Part shown: positions 25,865 through 54,954 of the stretch, one piece after another
Numbering within the stretch: position 1 is the first letter of the stretch
Layout of the letters: each line of letters begins with the position of its first letter
NCBI GenBank assembly: GCA_947044405.1
Contig: CAMRHE010000077.1
Coordinates: 3,656,001-3,720,000 of the forward strand
From: Leptodactylus fallax
Taxonomy: Eukaryota; Chordata; Amphibia; Anura; Leptodactylidae
Length of the DNA: 64,000 nucleotides
Direction: 5' to 3'
Notes under the pieces: generated by a model
Seen by the model: only the letters and a program-made list of their open reading frames with translations
Told to the model about the DNA's origin: nothing
Databases searched by the model: none
Program-made: the position numbers and the translations under genes

Positions 25865-28462
25865 ATATCAGCACCTGATAAACTGAGGCCAGCCCCTATG
25901 ATCTCCCTACAATTGCCTGAGGGGAGAACTTGAGAATTTTTTTAGTGGATACTGGAGCTAACAAACCTGTTTTTCACACTGACAATGATTTTTCCCTATG
26001 AGATAACTTATGATTACCACTAGATTCTTTGTCAGTGAGTCTGTCTCAATTAACTTGCTGGGATCAGACGTTTTACAAGCCCTAATGGCTCACATTGTGT
26101 ATGAGCCAGATGGAACGGTATCACTGTTACCAATAATGTCAGAAGACACCTTATGTTCCCTACACTCCCTGGTTTTCCTGACAAAGCAAAACAATGCAGA
26201 GGTAGTTAGTGTAGAGGAACATCTAGGTTGTGTGCCCCATTACCTCTGGCAAAAGGAAAAACAGATCTAGGCAAATTGCCAGTACCCCCAGTAATGGTCA
26301 CATTGCATTTACCTTGAAGGGCAAACAATATGCCTGGACAGTGCTACCACAAGGGGCGCAGCATTCTCCCACCCTGTATACTGCAGGGCGTGGTGCTACT
26401 CCAGTATGGGGATGACCTGCTTTTATTTGGCCCCTCCTAGGAGATATGTACAAGCATCAGTATCTCGGTTGTGCTTTTTAACTGAAAATGGATGTAAAGA
26501 ATCTAAGTCCAAATTGCATTTCTGCCTTACTGAAGTTGTTTTTCTAGGTCATTGCATTTTACAAGGAAATCTGACCCCTGATAGACTTCAGGTCATACAG
26601 GAGCTTAAACCCCCGAATGGTGTGGCACAACTTAGGACATTCTTAGGCCTTGTGTCCTACTGCAGACAGTGGATCTGTAATGTATCCCTGTTAATGCAAC
26701 CTCTCTATAAATGCATCACTAAACCAGAACAGGCAGTGGAAAACTTCCACTCCATCAAGTTGGCACTTATTTACACAAGTTTTAGGACTTCCTAATTATG
26801 ACGAGACTTTTTCTCTTTACTGTACAGAAATGTCGGGACACGCAACAGCAGTGCTTACTCAGACTCATGGACACCAACTAAGACCAGTATCTTAATATTC
26901 TGCTAGATTAGACCCAGTGTCCAGAGGAGCACCTTCTTGTGTTAGGGCAGTAGCTGCAGTCCAATTGTCCCTGGAGAAAGGTGCAGAAATCGTATTGGAT
27001 TTCCCTATCACAGTACTTACTCCTCATGATGTACATGGCATATTGACCCAGGCCCAGCCTAAGCACATTTCAATGGCTAGACAACTCAGATTATAGTGTG
27101 CCTTACTTATGCCTCCTAATGTCACCCTTGCACGCTCCACGACACTCCATCCCTATACCCTGTTACCAATAGATTCAAGGGGGGGAAAGGAAGGACAACA
27201 GTGAAACAACCTGTACACACGTGTATTTTCTGATGAAATGTATATAACTAATGCAGCAAGAAACTGTAGGATTTGGTCATGTAAATGCTGAATCTATTGC
27301 TAACTCTGATTTTGAGTTCTTTTGTAGATGGCTCTCGATTTGGGAATGATGGCTAATTCTATACCAGATATGCCAGTGAACATGAGGTAAACAAGCAGAA
27401 CCATTACCCCCACAGGTCTCAGCTCAAGAAGCTGAACTGAAAGCACTCACTGAAACGATGTAAAATAGCTGAGGGTAAGCCCGCTATGCCTTTTATATAG
27501 AATAAGACTATGGTCTGATGTGGAGAGTAATAGCTTACCTTAGTTCTAATGGTATGCTTATAAAGGATTTACAGGCTATTCAGGAGCTGATGGAGATCAT
27601 GCTGCCACCAAGGCTGATACAAAAGAGAGTAGAGATAATGCAAAGGCAGATGTTGCCGCCAAACTAGCTGCAGAAAAGCCTAGATGCTCAGCTCTCATTT
27701 CAGGTTCTAAAAACATTGCAGGACCAAGCCGGTCCAGAAGAAAAGAAGACTTGGGAGCAGAAAATTGCAAAAGAAGATGAACAAGGCCTGATGGTCAGTG
27801 GTAAGAGAGTATGTTTACCTAGAGCATTGTTCCCAATGATGGCGCAAGCAGCTCATTCTCAAGTGCACCACTCAAAAACAGCCATTTGTGACCTGGTGAG
27901 CAACGGTGGGTAGCTCCAGGTTTTAGCACAACTGCAGTCAGATACGTGTAAGCCTGCATGACATGTGCTAGGCATAATGTGGGCCAAAAAGTAAAGGTTC
28001 CTCAGAAACACACCCCAAAGTCCTTGTACCCGTTTCAGAGATTGCAGGTTGACTATATACAGTTACCAAAGGCGGGAAGGTATGAGTACGTGCTTGTGTG
28101 TTGATCTCTTTTCAGGATGGCCTGAGGCATTTCCGGTACAGAAAGCCACCGCTAAAGTAACTTCAGATAAACTACTTAAAGAAGTAGTGTGCAGATATGG
28201 GATCCCCGAGACCATCGAAAGTGATAATGGCACTCACTTCCCTGGACAGTTCTCTTCTAGATCCAAACCTTGTACTGGGAACACATTCCCTAAAGCCAGG
28301 AGACTGGGTGGTGGTAAAGAGACACGTGAGAGCCTTGATCCACGGTTTGATGGTCCTTTCCAAGTGCTTCCGACAACATCCTCTTCAGTCAAGTTAGAAG
28401 GAAAGTCGACGTGGATCCACGCTAGTCACTGTAAAAATGTGACCTGCCCGGAAGAGGACTGA
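25865..28462 (+). pseudogene. pol: ERV pro-pol remnant (protease, RT, RNase H, integrase)
   Basis: Order of recognisable parts: a protease with VDTGAN at 25945-25962 and LLGSD near 26055; an RT segment with WTVLPQGAQ near 26336-26362; the YxDD box as QYGDD near 26403-26417; then the RT thumb (26430-26795). A connection region follows to about 27180, RNase H with VDGS at 27324-27335, then integrase. The integrase has a zinc-site HSQVH near 27856 and CMTC near 27957, QVDYIQLP near 28047, and ESDNGTHF near 28220. Between the fingers/palm parts of RT, and again after the second catalytic Asp of integrase (about 28250), sequence is missing; the catalytic Glu of integrase is therefore lost. The integrase C-terminus (WIHASHCK near 28420) follows. 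Many stops and frame changes interrupt it. Confidence 0.88.
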
Positions 28463-28589: not shown

Positions 28590-30061
28590 AAGAACCCAGG
28601 GATTGTTGGATCTGTACTCACAGCCCTGGTTCTCCAAAGACTATGTTTTATCTAGCACTCCCTCTTGACCTAGATGAGTTTTTCTCTTAATGACTCCTGT
28701 TTTCATAATGTTTCGTGGAGTCCAGTGACTTATAAGGGAATGAACATCAGTAATAATCACTTTGTTCCAATTCCCATAGCAGGTTGGGTGACCCTCACAT
28801 GGTTACAGCTAAACCTGACAGGTAGACCAAGCAAGTGGTATGATTGGAAAAAGGAAAATTTGAACATAAATTCAAAGTCCCATATCACGCCGGTATCATT
28901 CCCACAGAAGAGCTTAGTATTAGCCTTAGTCTACCAAGCACCTGTACTGTAAGGTCAGATAAAGTGGACTTCATTTTTTAAGAAAAAGATTCATGCCCCC
29001 TTACAAGATAGTGACAGATGGTTCACAGAGGGAATAAAGGGTTGTCCAGAGCACAACTCCTCAATAGAACGGGGATTAGTTAAGGATAGTCAGTCAGGGG
29101 TGTCTGATAGAGAGCACTGGACCCCAAAGAGACATAAAGACGGGGGTAAGTGGTGTGCAAAACCCCCCCCCATGCAGCGACTCTTTAGCTACCTCTCTTG
29201 CCTAGTTCAGCTTCGGAGAGCATGCACATTGCCCAAGGATGTATATCTAGTATGTGGTCATCAGGCATACAAGTGGCTACCCCCAGGGGGAGAGGGGACT
29301 TGTACTCTAGCTAGACTGACACCAGCCACCTTCATAATTACCCATGAACATGTGAAACCTGAGATGATACCCCGTCATACTTTGTACAAGTGTGCAGCAG
29401 ACAATCACCCTAGGAAAGATGGGTGACCTCATTTGGTTTCAATGGGTACAAGCAACAGAATCATCAGCACGATACTCTTGTATCCCATGGTTATGCAAAC
29501 TTATGACAAGTTAGTAGAATCCACCGATTATCTAGATGAGCAGATATACACCATTCTAGGCCTGTTGAATGCCACTAATACGATACAAGGACAACTCATA
29601 ATAGTCAGTAATCAACACACCATAGTCCTTGACTATCTCACAGCAGCACAGGGGGAATGTGTCAGATTATCGTACCTTCCTGTTGTCATTATATTAACTC
29701 TGAAGGGAATCTTCAAGTGTGGGCAGGGATCGATAAGGTCAAAGAACTTAGAGAAAAATGGATCAAAGAACATCAGAAGACACAGGACAGTTGGTGGTCA
29801 GATACCTTTTCGTTCTTAAATCCTGCCAATTGGTTTAAGGGATTAGGTGGATGGCTTATGGGGATATTGCAGGGAATATTTCAAATATTATTGCTGTGTT
29901 TTTGCATCTATTGGATTATAAAGTTTATAATATGGCTTGTAAATAAACTTGCTAGAAAGAGGTCCAAACCCAAGACAGTGGGTTTGCAGGTTGTAAGGGT
30001 GGTCAGACACACTGATAAACATGACAGTGAAGGCATCCTTCTGAGTGTATTAGACCAATAG
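28590..30061 (+). pseudogene. env: ERV envelope remnant
   Basis: The surface part keeps a CWIC motif at 28604-28615, the isomerase-like site of gamma-type envelopes that bond covalently to the transmembrane subunit. Open pieces lie at 28674-28952 and 29100-29426. The transmembrane part begins in the frame 29433-29819 and continues in another frame from 29657 to the stop at 30059-30061; a frame change lies near a run of G at 29651-29655. The second frame carries CX6CC at 29660-29686 and, near 29860-29950, a hydrophobic span (GIFQILLLCFCIYWII) followed by Lys/Arg, as expected for membrane anchoring. The start codon and signal peptide are not evident. It is non-functional because of stops and the frameshift. 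Confidence 0.85.
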
Positions 30062-40160: not shown

Positions 40161-40666
40161 TTTTTTTTTTTTAAACCCCTCCTTTTGAGAGCCATGTTCT
40201 CCCAGTGCTGAAACTGCACAGGGGGCGTCCCCTGTGTTCTCCTCAGATGCATTTTTGAACTTACCGCGCTGCCTCTCTTCTTCTTTAGAAGATGCCTCTT
40301 CTTGGCTTCATCCTTCGTTCTTGAGACATGCGCCGACTGCGCATGGCCATTCGGGCATTTTCCTGTGGCCTATTACACGTACTGAATGCGCTGTATGTAA
40401 TAGGCCACAGAAAAATGGCCGAACGAAGACTCATACAAGGATTAGGGACAAGAATCTCTCACATTGAGGAGAGCACCAGTGAAGGTGTGTAGAGATTTTA
40501 ATTGCCTTTCGCCCTCTACTTAGCATCTACATATCACAAGGCATTATGGGAAAGGAGCTGGGGAGCTCATGCGCCCTCTATTGGATGTAACAGATCCTCA
40601 ATTTGCTTTTGACTCACCGAGCCTTAAGACAGCAAAAGGGATCTTAGCCAAGCCAATTTCACTTAT

Positions 40667-40711
40667 CTGCATACAGCGCTGTTTCCGGATTGTTGTCCTT
40701 CATCAGTACAG
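40667..40711 (-). ncRNA. hammerhead ribozyme, unit 1
   Basis: On the minus strand it has the same 45-base sequence as unit 4: CTGTA, then CTGATGA, a small GGA/TCC stem, GAAAC, CAGC/GCTG, and GTA^TGCAG. See unit 4 for the pairing. Confidence 0.8.
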
Positions 40712-40978
40712 AGCAAAGTGAATTGGCTGGCTTAGTGGGAGGCAATGAGTGGGTTAGGGACAAGAATCTCTCACATTGAGGAGAGCACCAGTGAAGGTGT
40801 GTAGAGATTTTAATTGCCTTTCGCCCTCTACTTAGCATCTACATATCACAAGGCATTATGGGAAAGGAGCTGGGGAGCTCATGCGCCCTCTATTGGATGT
40901 AACAGATCCTCAATTTGCTTTTGACTCACCGAGCCTTAAGACAGCAAAAGGGATCTTAGCCAAGCCAATTTCACTTAT

Positions 40979-41023
40979 CTGCATACAGCGCTGTTTCCGG
41001 ATTGTTGTCCTTCATCAGTACAG
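40979..41023 (-). ncRNA. hammerhead ribozyme, unit 2
   Basis: Identical core, 312 bp from unit 1, so self-cleavage at both sites would release a monomer of 312 nt. Confidence 0.8.
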
Positions 41024-41159
41024 AGCAAAGTGAATTGGCTGGCTTAGTGGGAGGCAATTAAAATCTCTACACACCTTCACTGGTGCTCTCCTCAATGTGA
41101 GAGATTCTTGTCCCTAACCCACTCATTGCCTCCCACTAAGCCAGCCAATTCACTTTGCT

Positions 41160-41202
41160 CTGTACTGATGAAGGACAACAATCCGAACAGCGCTGTATGC
41201 AG
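41160..41202 (+). ncRNA. hammerhead ribozyme, unit 3, core damaged
   Basis: Same as unit 4 except that CCGGAAACAGC is CCGAACAGC here: two bases are gone from the conserved GAAA strand. Loss of those bases should abolish cleavage. Confidence 0.75.
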
Positions 41203-41469
41203 ATAAGTGAAATTGGCTTGGCTAAGATCCCTTTTGCTGTCTTAAGGCTCAGTGAGTCAAAAGCAAATTGAGGATCTGTTACATCCAATAGAGGGCGCAT
41301 GAGCTCCCCAGCTCTTTTCCCATAATGCCTTGTGATATGTAGATGCTAAGTAGAGGGCGAAAGACAATTAAAATCTCTACACACCTTCACTGGTGCTCTC
41401 CTCAATGTGAGAGATTCTTGTCCCTAACCCACTCATTGCCTCCCACTAAGCCAGCCAATTCACTTTGCT

Positions 41470-41514
41470 CTGTACTGATGAAGGACAACAATCCGGAAAC
41501 AGCGCTGTATGCAG
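41470..41514 (+). ncRNA. hammerhead ribozyme, unit 4, core complete
   Basis: Self-cleaving RNA. Stem I: CTGTA (41470-41474) with TGCAG (41510-41514), including one G-U pair. Core strand CTGATGA at 41475-41481. Stem II: GGA (41483-41485) with TCC (41492-41494), loop CAACAA; the first position beside the core is an A-G opposition instead of the usual G-C. Core strand GAAA at 41496-41499. Stem III: CAGC (41500-41503) next to GCTG (41504-41507), self-complementary with no loop, so two molecules or two units would pair as a dimer. The predicted cleavage triplet is GTA, after 41509. Open ends in stem I make it type I. The short stem III is typical of retrozyme, satellite-DNA and Penelope hammerheads. 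Confidence 0.82.
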
Positions 41515-41905
41515 ATAAGTGAAATTGGCTTGGCTAAGATCCCTTTTGCTGTCTTAAGGCTCGGTGAGTCAAAAGCAAATTGAGGATCTGTTACATCCAA
41601 GAGAGGGCGCATGAGCTCCCCAGCTCCTTTCCCATAATGCCTTGTCATACAAGGATGACATCAAGAAGAAGCGTCTGCTAAAGAAGAAGAGAGGCAGCGT
41701 AGTAAGTTAAAAAATGCGTCTGAGGAGCGCACAGGGAACGCCCCCTGTACATTCTGAACATGCATTTGCATAAAGATAAAAATCAACATTTCTTCTAAAC
41801 GGCAGCGAGGAGCGAAACAACAAAGGTAGGAGACTAATAGCCTTTATAAAGGCTGTTACGACGTGGCTTCAGTTAAAAACATGTTTCCCCAATGACAGAA
41901 TCCCT

Positions 41906-42253: not shown

Positions 42254-43560
42254 TTAGTCCCAACAATTAAGCAATAAAAGTATTAACGGCAGTACGAAAG
42301 TCAGCAGGGAATTACACCAAGATCCACAAACTTTTGGGAATTTTTTAGGGCAACCCCTACCTTTATATACTATTTGATTATATGGCAAGACAGAGTAAAC
42401 TAGTTTTCTCCACATAGACAAGGAGGGAGGGTGCGGAGCCATCCAATGTAAGACAATAGCCATTCTAGCTAAAACTAAGGATTCCCGCAAAAAGATACGA
42501 GAGTAGTGCGGCCACATTTCCTCGTCGAGGATACCAAATAAGCATATTTCAGGGGAGAGTGGAACAGGGGTGCCTAATATGTCTGACAGGAGGTCTATGA
42601 CCTCAGTCCAAAAACCTTTAACTATAGGGCATTCCCAGATCATATGCCAAAAATCAGAGTACATGACAGAACAACACAGTCACCCGGGATGTTGCAGGAG
42701 TCCCATTTTATGCAGATGTGCAGGGGTCAAATAGCTTTGATGCAATATATACACTTGGATGAACTTATTGTTAACAGCTATGGATACATATTGCGTTGAT
42801 TCCAGAAGTTCTGAATATGTGTCATCAGTGAGAGTAGGAATAAGAGTGCACCATTTTAGTAAAGCAGGTGCATCTAAATGAGACATCTTGACCTGTATAT
42901 AAGTATATAAGCATAAGTATATGAGTATATAAGCACAAGATAAGACTTTGTTGACCTTGAGACCTAAGTACTCCTATAAGAGGATATGTAGGAATTAACA
43001 CATTCAATGAAGGGAACTGCGTGAACATGCCGTGCCCGATCTTAAGGAATCTATAAAATTGGGTACAGGGAATATTACATAGTGTGCTCAGGGAGTTAAA
43101 AGATCGGAACATGCCCTGGTCAAAAACATCGCCCAAGGACACAACTCCGAACTGCTCCCAACTCAGGGAGCAGTTCGGAGTTGTATCAGGGAGGGCAAAA
43201 AGTTTGTTCAAACCTGGATTATCCTACAGTGGGGGTTTGATAGGAACATCATTGTAAGCCGCCACTTGCTTAACCTGTTGCCAGACCTGTTTTGCCAATT
43301 TGTGAATGGGCAGAAATCTACCTCTGTATAGATGTGGGTTCTCCAACACTGGCCATAGGTTGGGATTATTTAAGTAATGTGCTAAGTAAGCCTCTGGGCC
43401 AGGTAGAGGGTCTGCTAGTAACCATACTTTAAACTTAACTCTAAAGTGACTGAGGAGTGGGTATGCATTTAAACTCAAGAAGTGTCTATGGTTATTGGAA
43501 ATATGGATTCCCTAGTATTTGCAGGTGTCCATGATCTTAAGACCATTTCCAGGAAATTTT
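42254..43560 (-). pseudogene. L1/Tx1-type LINE, ORF2 C-terminal remnant
   Basis: The frames run from right to left: 43478-43224 (PLPGPEAYLAHYLNNPNLWP), 43211-42825, 42886-42680 (NNKFIQVYILHQSYLTPAHL) and 42664-42254 (FWHMIWECPIVKGFW, RGCPKKFPKVCGSWC). The last has the C-terminal pattern of L1-like ORF2 proteins after the reverse transcriptase, with a decayed Cys-His cluster just before FWHMIWECP. Endonuclease and reverse-transcriptase catalytic domains are absent; 5' truncation near 43560 is usual for LINE insertions. Several frameshifts are present. The 3' untranslated part would lie at 41950-42250. Confidence 0.82.
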
Positions 43561-47810: not shown

Positions 47811-49312
<1,502 letters not shown>

Positions 49313-53304: not shown

Positions 53305-54954
53305 CAGTCATATGAAAAAGTTTGGGCACCCCTATTAATCTTAATCATTTTTAGTTCTAAATATTTGGGTGTTTGCAACAGCCATTTCAATTTGATATAT
53401 CTAATAACTGATGGACACAGTAATATTTCAGGATTGAATTGAGGTTTATTGTACTAACAGAAAATGTGCAATATGCATTAAACCAAAATTTGACCCGTGC
53501 AAAAATTTGGGTACCCTTATCATTTTATTGATTTGAATACTCCTAACTACTTTTTACTGACTTACTGAAGCACAAAATTGGTTTTGTAACCTCACTGAGC
53601 TTTGAACTTCATAGCCAGGTGTATCCAATCATGAGAAAAGGTATTTAAGGTGGCCAATTGCAAGTTGTTCTCCTATTTGAATCTCCTCTGAAGAGTGGCA
53701 TCATGGGCTCCTCAAATCAACTCTAAAATGATCTGAAAACAAAGATTGTTCAACATAGTTGTTCAGGGGAAGGATACAAAAAGTTGTCTCAGAGATTTAA
53801 CCTGTCAGTTTCCACTTTGAGGAACATAGTAAGGAAATGGAAGACCACAGGGACAGTTCTTGTTAAGCCCAGAAGTGGCAGGCCAAGAAAAATATCAGAA
53901 AGGCAGAGAAGAAGAATGGTGAGAACAGTCAAGGACAATCCACAGACCACCTCCAAAGAGCTGCAGCATCATCTTGCTGCAGATGGTGTCACTGTGCATC
54001 AGTCAACAATACAGCACACTTTGCACAAGGAGAAGCTGTATGGGAGAGTGATGCGAAAGAAGCCGTTTCTGAAAGCACGCCACAAACAGAGTCGCCTGAG
54101 GTATGCAAAAGCACATTTGGACAAGCCAGCTTCATTTTGGAAGAAGGTCCTGTGGACTGATGAAACAAAGATTGAGTTGTTTGGTCATACAAAAAGGCAT
54201 TATGCATGGCGTCAAAAAAACACAGCATTCCAAGAAAAACACTTGCTACCCACTGTAAAATTTGGTGGAGGTTCCATCATGCTTTGGGGCTGTGTGGCCA
54301 ATGCCGGCACCGGGAATCTTGTTAAAGTTGAGGGTCGCATGGATTCAACTCAGTATCAGCAGATTCTTGAGAATAATGTACAAGAATCAGTGACGAATTT
54401 GAAGATACGCCGGGGATTTATATTTCAGCAAGACAATGATCCAAAACACAGCTCCAAATCTACTCAGGCATTCATGCAGAGGAACAATTACAATGTTCTG
54501 GAATGGCCATCCCAGTCCCCAGACCTGAATATCATTGAACATCTGTGGGATAATTTGAAGCGGGCTGTCCATGCTCGGCGACCATCAAACTTAACTGAAC
54601 TGGAATTGTTTTGTAAAGAGGAATGGTCAAAAATACCTTCATCCAGGATCCAGGAACTGATTAAAAGCTACAGGAAGCGACTAGAGGCTGTTATTTTTGC
54701 AAAAGGAGGATCTACTAAATATTAATGTCACTTTTCTGTTGAGGTGCCCATACTTTTGCACCGGTCAAATTTTGATTTAATGCATATTGCACATTTTCTG
54801 TTAGTACAATAAACCTCATTTCAATCCTGAAATATTACTGTGTCCATCAGTTATTAGATATATCAAATTGAAATGGCTGTTGCAAACACCCAAATATTTA
54901 GAACTAAAAATGATTAAGATTAATAGGGGTGCCCAAACTTTTTTCATATGACTG
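53305..54954 (+). mobile_element. Tc1-like DNA transposon, young and nearly intact
   Basis: It lies between TA dinucleotides (53303-53304 and 54955-54956). The inverted repeats are about 217 bp (53305-53521 and 54738-54954), starting CAGTCATATGAAAAAGTTTGG and differing at only a few positions over most of their length. The inner end of each arm has a degenerate second motif (TTTGGGTACCC / GGTGCCCATAC), so it is IR/DR-like. It encloses one transposase gene with a single visible lesion. The element is 1650 bp, the full size for the family, and by arm identity is the youngest DNA transposon in the window. Confidence 0.96.
53703..54725 (+). pseudogene. Tc1 transposase, one nonsense codon at position 8
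   Basis: A DD34E transposase of 340 codons from ATG 53703 (MGSSNQL then TAA at 53724-53726) to TAA 54723-54725. After the nonsense codon the frame is fully open. Domains: first helix-turn-helix at residues about 10-55, a GRPRK hook at 59-63, a second helix-turn-helix at about 65-115, then the catalytic domain with D153 (WTDETK), D244 (FQQDND) and E279 (NIIEHLW), plus the Gly-rich GGGS loop. All three catalytic residues and the length match active Tc1 transposases. No ATG lies soon after the stop; downstream initiation would remove part of the first DNA-binding motif. I chose ATG 53703 because it is in frame, gives the family length, and the codons right after the stop still read as the normal N-terminus (KIVQH..GEGYKKLSQRF). 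Confidence 0.93.

Follow-up and report, generated by a model that had tools for sequence, protein, structure and literature searches.

The window analysed here, a stretch of 64,000 nucleotides from the frog Leptodactylus fallax (contig CAMRHE010000077.1, positions 3,656,001 to 3,720,000), contains an insert of 1202 bp (40443-41644), which is bounded on both sides by exact copies of the 12-bp sequence TCATACAAGGAT (Table 1). The original prediction had described exact flanking repeats, a period of about 312 nt and two hammerhead-like units on each strand, and all of these were confirmed. Since one nucleotide at each inner edge can be assigned to either side, the length of the target duplication is given as 10-12 bp. 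The insert consists of two arms, each comprising approximately two laps of a 312-nt unit, with the lap boundaries set at the predicted ribozyme cut site and the same period on both sides. The arms meet head-to-head: the 3′ end of the left-arm RNA adjoins the left duplication and the 3′ end of the right-arm RNA adjoins the right one, and these outer ends fall at differing positions within the unit, i.e., at position 229 on the left and at position 135 on the right. This arrangement, with both RNA 3′ ends placed at the duplication, is the most informative feature of the locus.

Table 1. Features of the insert and of its host site; coordinates refer to the window.
Feature	Position	Strand	Basis or remark
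Left part of older host fold-back element (arm 40206-40315), insertion target	40206..40442	+	inverted pair
Left target-site duplication, 12 bp	40431..40442	.	exact repeat
Left arm, 616 nt in sense orientation	40443..41058	-	laps of 75 + 312 + 229 nt
Hammerhead core 1, intact, predicted cut 40672/40671	40666..40712	-	descriptor match, laps
Full 312-nt unit of left arm, predicted cut to predicted cut	40672..40983	-	
Hammerhead core 2, intact, predicted cut 40984/40983	40978..41024	-	descriptor match, laps
Overlap of both arms, 4 nt (CAAT), head-to-head meeting point	41055..41058	.	sequence
Right arm, 590 nt in sense orientation	41055..41644	+	laps of 143 + 312 + 135 nt
Hammerhead core 3, 2-nt core deletion, predicted cut 41197/41198 retained	41159..41203	+	missed by descriptor
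Full 312-nt unit of right arm, predicted cut to predicted cut	41198..41509	+	3 substitutions vs left-arm unit
Hammerhead 4 including its long helix I (17 pairs outside the UGC/U internal loop)	41449..41535	+	
Hammerhead core 4, intact, predicted cut 41509/41510	41469..41515	+	descriptor match, laps
Right target-site duplication, 12 bp	41645..41656	.	exact repeat
Right arm of older host fold-back element	41651..41760	+	inverted pair

Within the left arm a direct repeat of 300 nt shows 100% identity, and the laps are identical to one another at every shared position. Compared to these left laps, the right arm differs by four substitutions and one deletion of 2 nt. If these five private changes are later mutations, the probability that all of them fall into one arm, whichever of the two, is about 0.06, so nothing firm follows from their clustering; their confinement to the right arm was counted against the explanation favoured below. 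Taken as sequence features, the uneven changes and the differing end points appear to argue against a mirror-image artefact of the assembly. A blastn search of the array against the whole window returned no further copy, and no open reading frame in the list used here, which starts at 120 amino acids, overlaps the array.

The insertion target is an older fold-back element of the host, the arms of which are 84% complementary over 110 nt. The joined flanks fold as one long hairpin, and the insertion point is located within an arm. A second hairpin of 28 bp (40350-40423) is found right beside the left duplication. Two minus-strand open reading frames at 42254-43211 have the look of a LINE reverse transcriptase tail by eye, with no match in Pfam. 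Elsewhere in the window, Tc1/mariner-type transposase reading frames are present at 1234-2028 and 53784-54725, the second encoding 313 amino acids with HTH and DDE_3 domains. A gammaretrovirus-like integrase fragment (28049-28462) scores above the cut-off for MLVIN_C and just under it for rve, and the short reading frames near it (26406-26795 and 29657-30061) have no Pfam match. Moreover, 467 bases at 47885-48351 are nearly pure C (92% matches), which is unusual for an animal genome and possibly reflects a sequencing artefact. No tRNAs were found.

The core of the putative ribozyme reads, in order, CUGAUGA, stem II (GGA/UCC) with the loop CAACAA, GAA and stem III (ACA/UGU) with the palindromic tetraloop GCGC, followed by the A at the cut and by stem I (UCUGUA/UGCAGA). 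The base of stem II is an A-G apposition with only three more pairs above it, and this was counted against the motif. Hammerheads cleave after GUH, and because of this rule the cut of the fourth core is predicted between 41509 and 41510, which is where the original prediction had placed it and where the sequence agrees with the rule. The 45-nt segment that had been described as a type I hammerhead does hold the core and only the core: outside of it helix I runs 17 pairs further, past a small internal loop (UGC/U). For the canonical loop 1-loop 2 contact of hammerheads, helix I would offer this internal loop and stem II its CAACAA loop. Of the four hammerhead units proposed, the third lacks two nucleotides of the conserved stretch between stem II and stem III, so that three of the four cores are intact, and judged by its sequence core 3 is probably inactive as an enzyme.

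The hammerhead identity is supported by this anatomy and not by Rfam. At the gathering cut-off no Rfam family of any kind matched in the whole window. With the threshold relaxed to E ≤ 10, three matches were obtained in the region 40400-41700, none of them a hammerhead, i.e., Enterococcus-1 RNA (E 0.022) and mir-342 (E 2.7), both of which lie across the junction of the two arms, and one piece of an lncRNA; in the region 41450-41540 the same threshold gave four matches, two snoRNAs and two others, again with no hammerhead. The best Rfam matches in the array were rejected as unrelated and as lying under their curated scores. The hammerhead covariance match that the original prediction had expected is thus absent, and this counts against it. 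It was not taken as decisive, because the survey of axolotl hammerheads relied on RNAmotif, a structure descriptor (PMC7229834), and because the array does have the core, a palindromic stem III and a long helix I. The hammerhead call therefore rests on anatomy, and in the absence of a match at a curated score the element is not placed in an Rfam family. A descriptor built from the core and the three helices, composed after the motif had been seen, found three places in the window, all within the array; applied to 200 dinucleotide-shuffled windows, it gave two matches, one scoring equally high. Exact motif scans returned no match in viral contigs and none in prokaryote genome contigs, as is expected for an animal sequence.

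Regarding the predicted folds, a piece of 56 nt is no more stable than its shuffled versions (z 0.37; 127 of 200 shuffles equal or exceed its stability). For a 112-nt piece with the long helix I a z-value of -2.69 was obtained (3 of 200 shuffles as stable), with an optimum that mispairs the catalytic core, and for the 312-nt unit a value of -1.68 (6 of 100). As a monomer, the 47-nt core favours a non-hammerhead fold (-7.6 vs -4.6 kcal/mol), and so does a 94-nt piece with the long helix I (-31.7 vs -28.7 kcal/mol). Stem III has a self-complementary 10-nt sequence, ACAGCGCUGU, and two 47-nt cores cofold into a double hammerhead (-28.7 kcal/mol), the stability of which is by itself unexceptional, as 38 of 500 shuffled cores, counting any fold, cofold at least as strongly and in 24 of 500 the gain from pairing is as large. 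For the 616-nt left-arm RNA, the unconstrained optimum is a double hammerhead in cis at -184.8 kcal/mol, compared to -174.7 kcal/mol with two monomeric hammerheads, and it was the optimum in 0 of 30 cases when spacer and flanks were shuffled with their base composition kept. The same topology is predicted for the right-arm RNA despite its damaged core. In a single unit, linear or circular, the CUG of the core is paired with the CAG of stem III, i.e., the ribozyme is in an off state. These models, which leave out the non-standard contacts of the hammerhead core, predict a ribozyme that would be on in multimers and off in the circle. It was shown that axolotl hammerheads cleave far better as dimers (PMC7229834). 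If real, a dimer-on/circle-off switch would explain how the circle escapes from being cut again.

In the account given in PMC7229834, animal non-LTR retrozymes are tandem units of approximately 300 bp with type I hammerheads, for which RNA circles were demonstrated. The array shows the features used there to describe retrozymes: the type I core, by descriptor and anatomy, intact in three of four units, tandem units within 150-450 bp (312-nt period), a target duplication longer than 4 bp (12 bp), no coding capacity among the listed reading frames of at least 120 amino acids, and a GC content of the unit of 46.2%, which is below the 50% of the text and slightly over the <45% of a legend. Consequently the proposal of a retrozyme-like, non-autonomous element with a 312-nt unit is supported as far as core, tandem units, base composition and duplication are concerned and fails at Rfam; its non-autonomous nature is supported by the reading frames and by the comparison with the retrozymes of that account. 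Given the dimer-type stem III an amphibian retrozyme is plausible, and the original prediction as a whole is partly supported.

The closest likenesses, drawn from described features, are to amphibian units. Like the array, the axolotl elements Rtz_331 and Rtz_353 and the newt satellite repeats of approximately 330 bp are described as tandem non-coding units of about 300 bp with a type I hammerhead, a short stem III, low GC and a duplication of more than 4 bp (PMC7229834). The axolotl ribozyme Amex1 has a palindromic stem III tetraloop as does the core found here, and the weak base of stem II, an A-G apposition in the array, is U-U in Amex2 (PMC7229834). In contrast to the array with its two tandem runs head-to-head, the axolotl and newt retrozymes are described as tandem repeats, and the words "inverted" and "head-to-head" do not occur in the main text of that source (PMC7229834). 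Furthermore, most animal circles are predicted there with the hammerhead free, whereas in the predicted circle of the array it is mispaired. Interspersed hammerhead repeats are described in another frog, Xenopus tropicalis, and are likened to the array by description only; the same source states for several ribozymes, which it does not say to be those of Xenopus tropicalis, that a palindromic stem III permits dimers (PMC3088659). The plant LTR retrozymes are similar in being non-autonomous and in forming hammerhead RNA circles and are different in their type III hammerheads, LTRs and 4-bp duplications (PMC7229834). Among the literature matches listed, no title or abstract opening describes a head-to-head retrozyme array, which does not establish its absence from print. 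As hammerhead repeats in a frog were already reported (PMC3088659), new at this locus is the head-to-head double array of an otherwise known kind.

As to its origin, we consider it the better-founded reading of this one locus that a retrozyme was inserted by two-sided target-primed reverse transcription. The structural features together with the literature on Penelope-like elements lead to this preference. The element is probably a metazoan non-LTR retrozyme inserted by Penelope-like machinery; the fuller version for the locus, which combines two-sided priming with both a Penelope-like enzyme and a circular template, is more tentative and falls somewhat short of even chances. With a similar reserve, the locus might be regarded as the fossil of a two-sided rolling-circle retrotransposition, in which each overhang was extended for approximately two laps on a hammerhead RNA circle. 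The process would start from a tandem transcript, in which neighbouring hammerheads share one palindromic helix III of 10 bp and thereby form a double hammerhead. Each core would then cut the site of its partner, freeing monomers of 312 nt, and a host RNA ligase would circularise the monomer, which might persist as a circle because it folds with the ribozyme off. The enzyme would cut the host DNA in a staggered manner and leave 3′ overhangs of 12 nt, as follows from the 12-bp duplication if the insert was target-primed. Each overhang would prime at an internal site of the RNA with little complementarity, approximately two laps being reverse transcribed per side, and finally both cDNAs would be joined centrally via the 4-nt microhomology. 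If both overhangs prime, both outer ends are RNA 3′ ends and the halves come to lie head-to-head. Each cDNA runs through the predicted cut site two times and shows no scar there, which points to a circular or multimeric template, and a linear multimer may have served instead of the circle.

Penelope-like elements (PLEs) were named as strong candidates for moving retrozymes (PMC7229834). For one Penelope-like protein it was shown in vitro that it cleaves and extends both strands, and that it starts internally without homology to the target, using an AC-rich stem loop (PMC11167929). In that study insertion did not depend on hammerhead cleavage, the enzyme mainly used unprocessed RNA, and reads beginning or ending at the hammerhead cut site were absent, which counts against the circle as the template of a PLE. 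The inverted repeats of PLEs are most frequently head-to-head, and several inverted copies carry duplications of 8-10 bp, some having none, in the survey of PMC3846280. PLEs resemble the array in that inverted copies lie head-to-head, target duplications are short, 3′ ends occur at more than one position, and hammerheads and tandem copies are present, as far as these are described in the sources cited. They differ in that canonical PLEs encode a reverse transcriptase and a GIY-YIG endonuclease, neither of which is encoded in the array among reading frames of at least 120 amino acids, and in that helix I of the array hammerhead is longer. Where PMC3846280 compares PLE types, it describes enzymes and cis sequences as adapted to each other and finds no indication that the types compared mobilise one another, which counts against the explanation favoured here; the same text describes a host gene that was moved in trans.

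Two-sided priming has to be weighed against four other routes to such an array. L1 twin priming gives head-to-head halves, central microhomology and duplications of similar size. If a LINE enzyme had primed on the bottom and then on the top strand on one linear multimeric transcript, the front half would be inverted and these three features of the array would be obtained, and the nearby reading frames that resemble a LINE tail by eye would fit, although Pfam finds no match in them. This route is unlikely here, as a poly(A) or simple tail is absent at both 3′ ends and the two halves overlap fully instead of representing successive parts of one RNA, so that twin priming would need a long multimer or two RNAs. 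More doubtful still is a remnant of a degenerate Penelope-like element, in which the units would be pseudo-LTRs and not an independent retrozyme. Pseudo-LTRs of PLEs can bear minimal type I hammerheads (PMC7761336, PMC11167929), and those of a rotifer are described with about 181-218 bp, as often inverted and in some cases with short duplications (PMC3846280); against this reading, roughly four laps follow one another here with no coding stretch between them, and the long helix I with its internal loop is unlike the minimal form.

Self-priming, in which a transcript or cDNA folds back and is copied into an inverted repeat, was proposed for inverted, head-to-head copies of PLEs, on an antisense template, in PMC3846280, and the central CAAT overlap would permit such a fold-back. 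At this locus we regard it as very unlikely: neither arm is long enough to have templated the other by snap-back, as only 374 nt would be available for the 590-nt arm and 520 nt for the 616-nt arm, and the outer ends lie at different unit positions. The least probable route is a satellite-type DNA array shaped by rearrangement at the DNA level (unequal exchange, inversion or fold-back repair) without reverse transcription, for which speak the newt hammerhead repeats, first known as satellite DNA (PMC7229834), and the host site, itself a long fold-back element, and against which stand the exact duplication of 12 bp of host sequence at the two outer ends, the presence of only about two laps per arm and the lack of a second copy in the window by blastn.

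Two-sided target priming directly predicts a head-to-head array in which the two RNA 3′ ends adjoin a single 12-bp duplication and the arms are too long for self-copying. The locus bears on the question which enzyme moves animal retrozymes, and makes it testable by a count of such arrays, and of where they end, across amphibian genomes. If the fuller version with the RNA circle is true, the locus would record in a genome the both-strand priming that a Penelope-like enzyme performs in vitro, and such a footprint would name the machinery that mobilises animal retrozymes and tie them to Penelope-type machinery.

An AC-rich start as a shared rule, as in PMC11167929, is unsupported: the left start is moderately AC-rich, 64 of the 312 unit positions being at least as rich, and the right start is not (310 of 312). 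The left start lies where the predicted circle is most open, and the right start lies at the 48th percentile of openness. Complementarity between primer end and RNA is 3/4 on the left, equalled by 69 of 312 positions and thus not above background, and a modest 5/6 on the right (12 of 312), for which reason priming without homology is not clear at the right end. The insertion target differs from the ATT motif of the PLE studied in vitro (PMC11167929). Penelope elements share an ancestor with telomerase reverse transcriptases, as stated in PMC3846280. The telomere-repeat-like sequence CCCTAACCC is located at unit positions 225-233, found in the window at 40751-40759 (minus strand) and at 41112-41120 and 41422-41430 (plus strand), and the start of the left arm falls within it, following CCCTA, which may be a coincidence.
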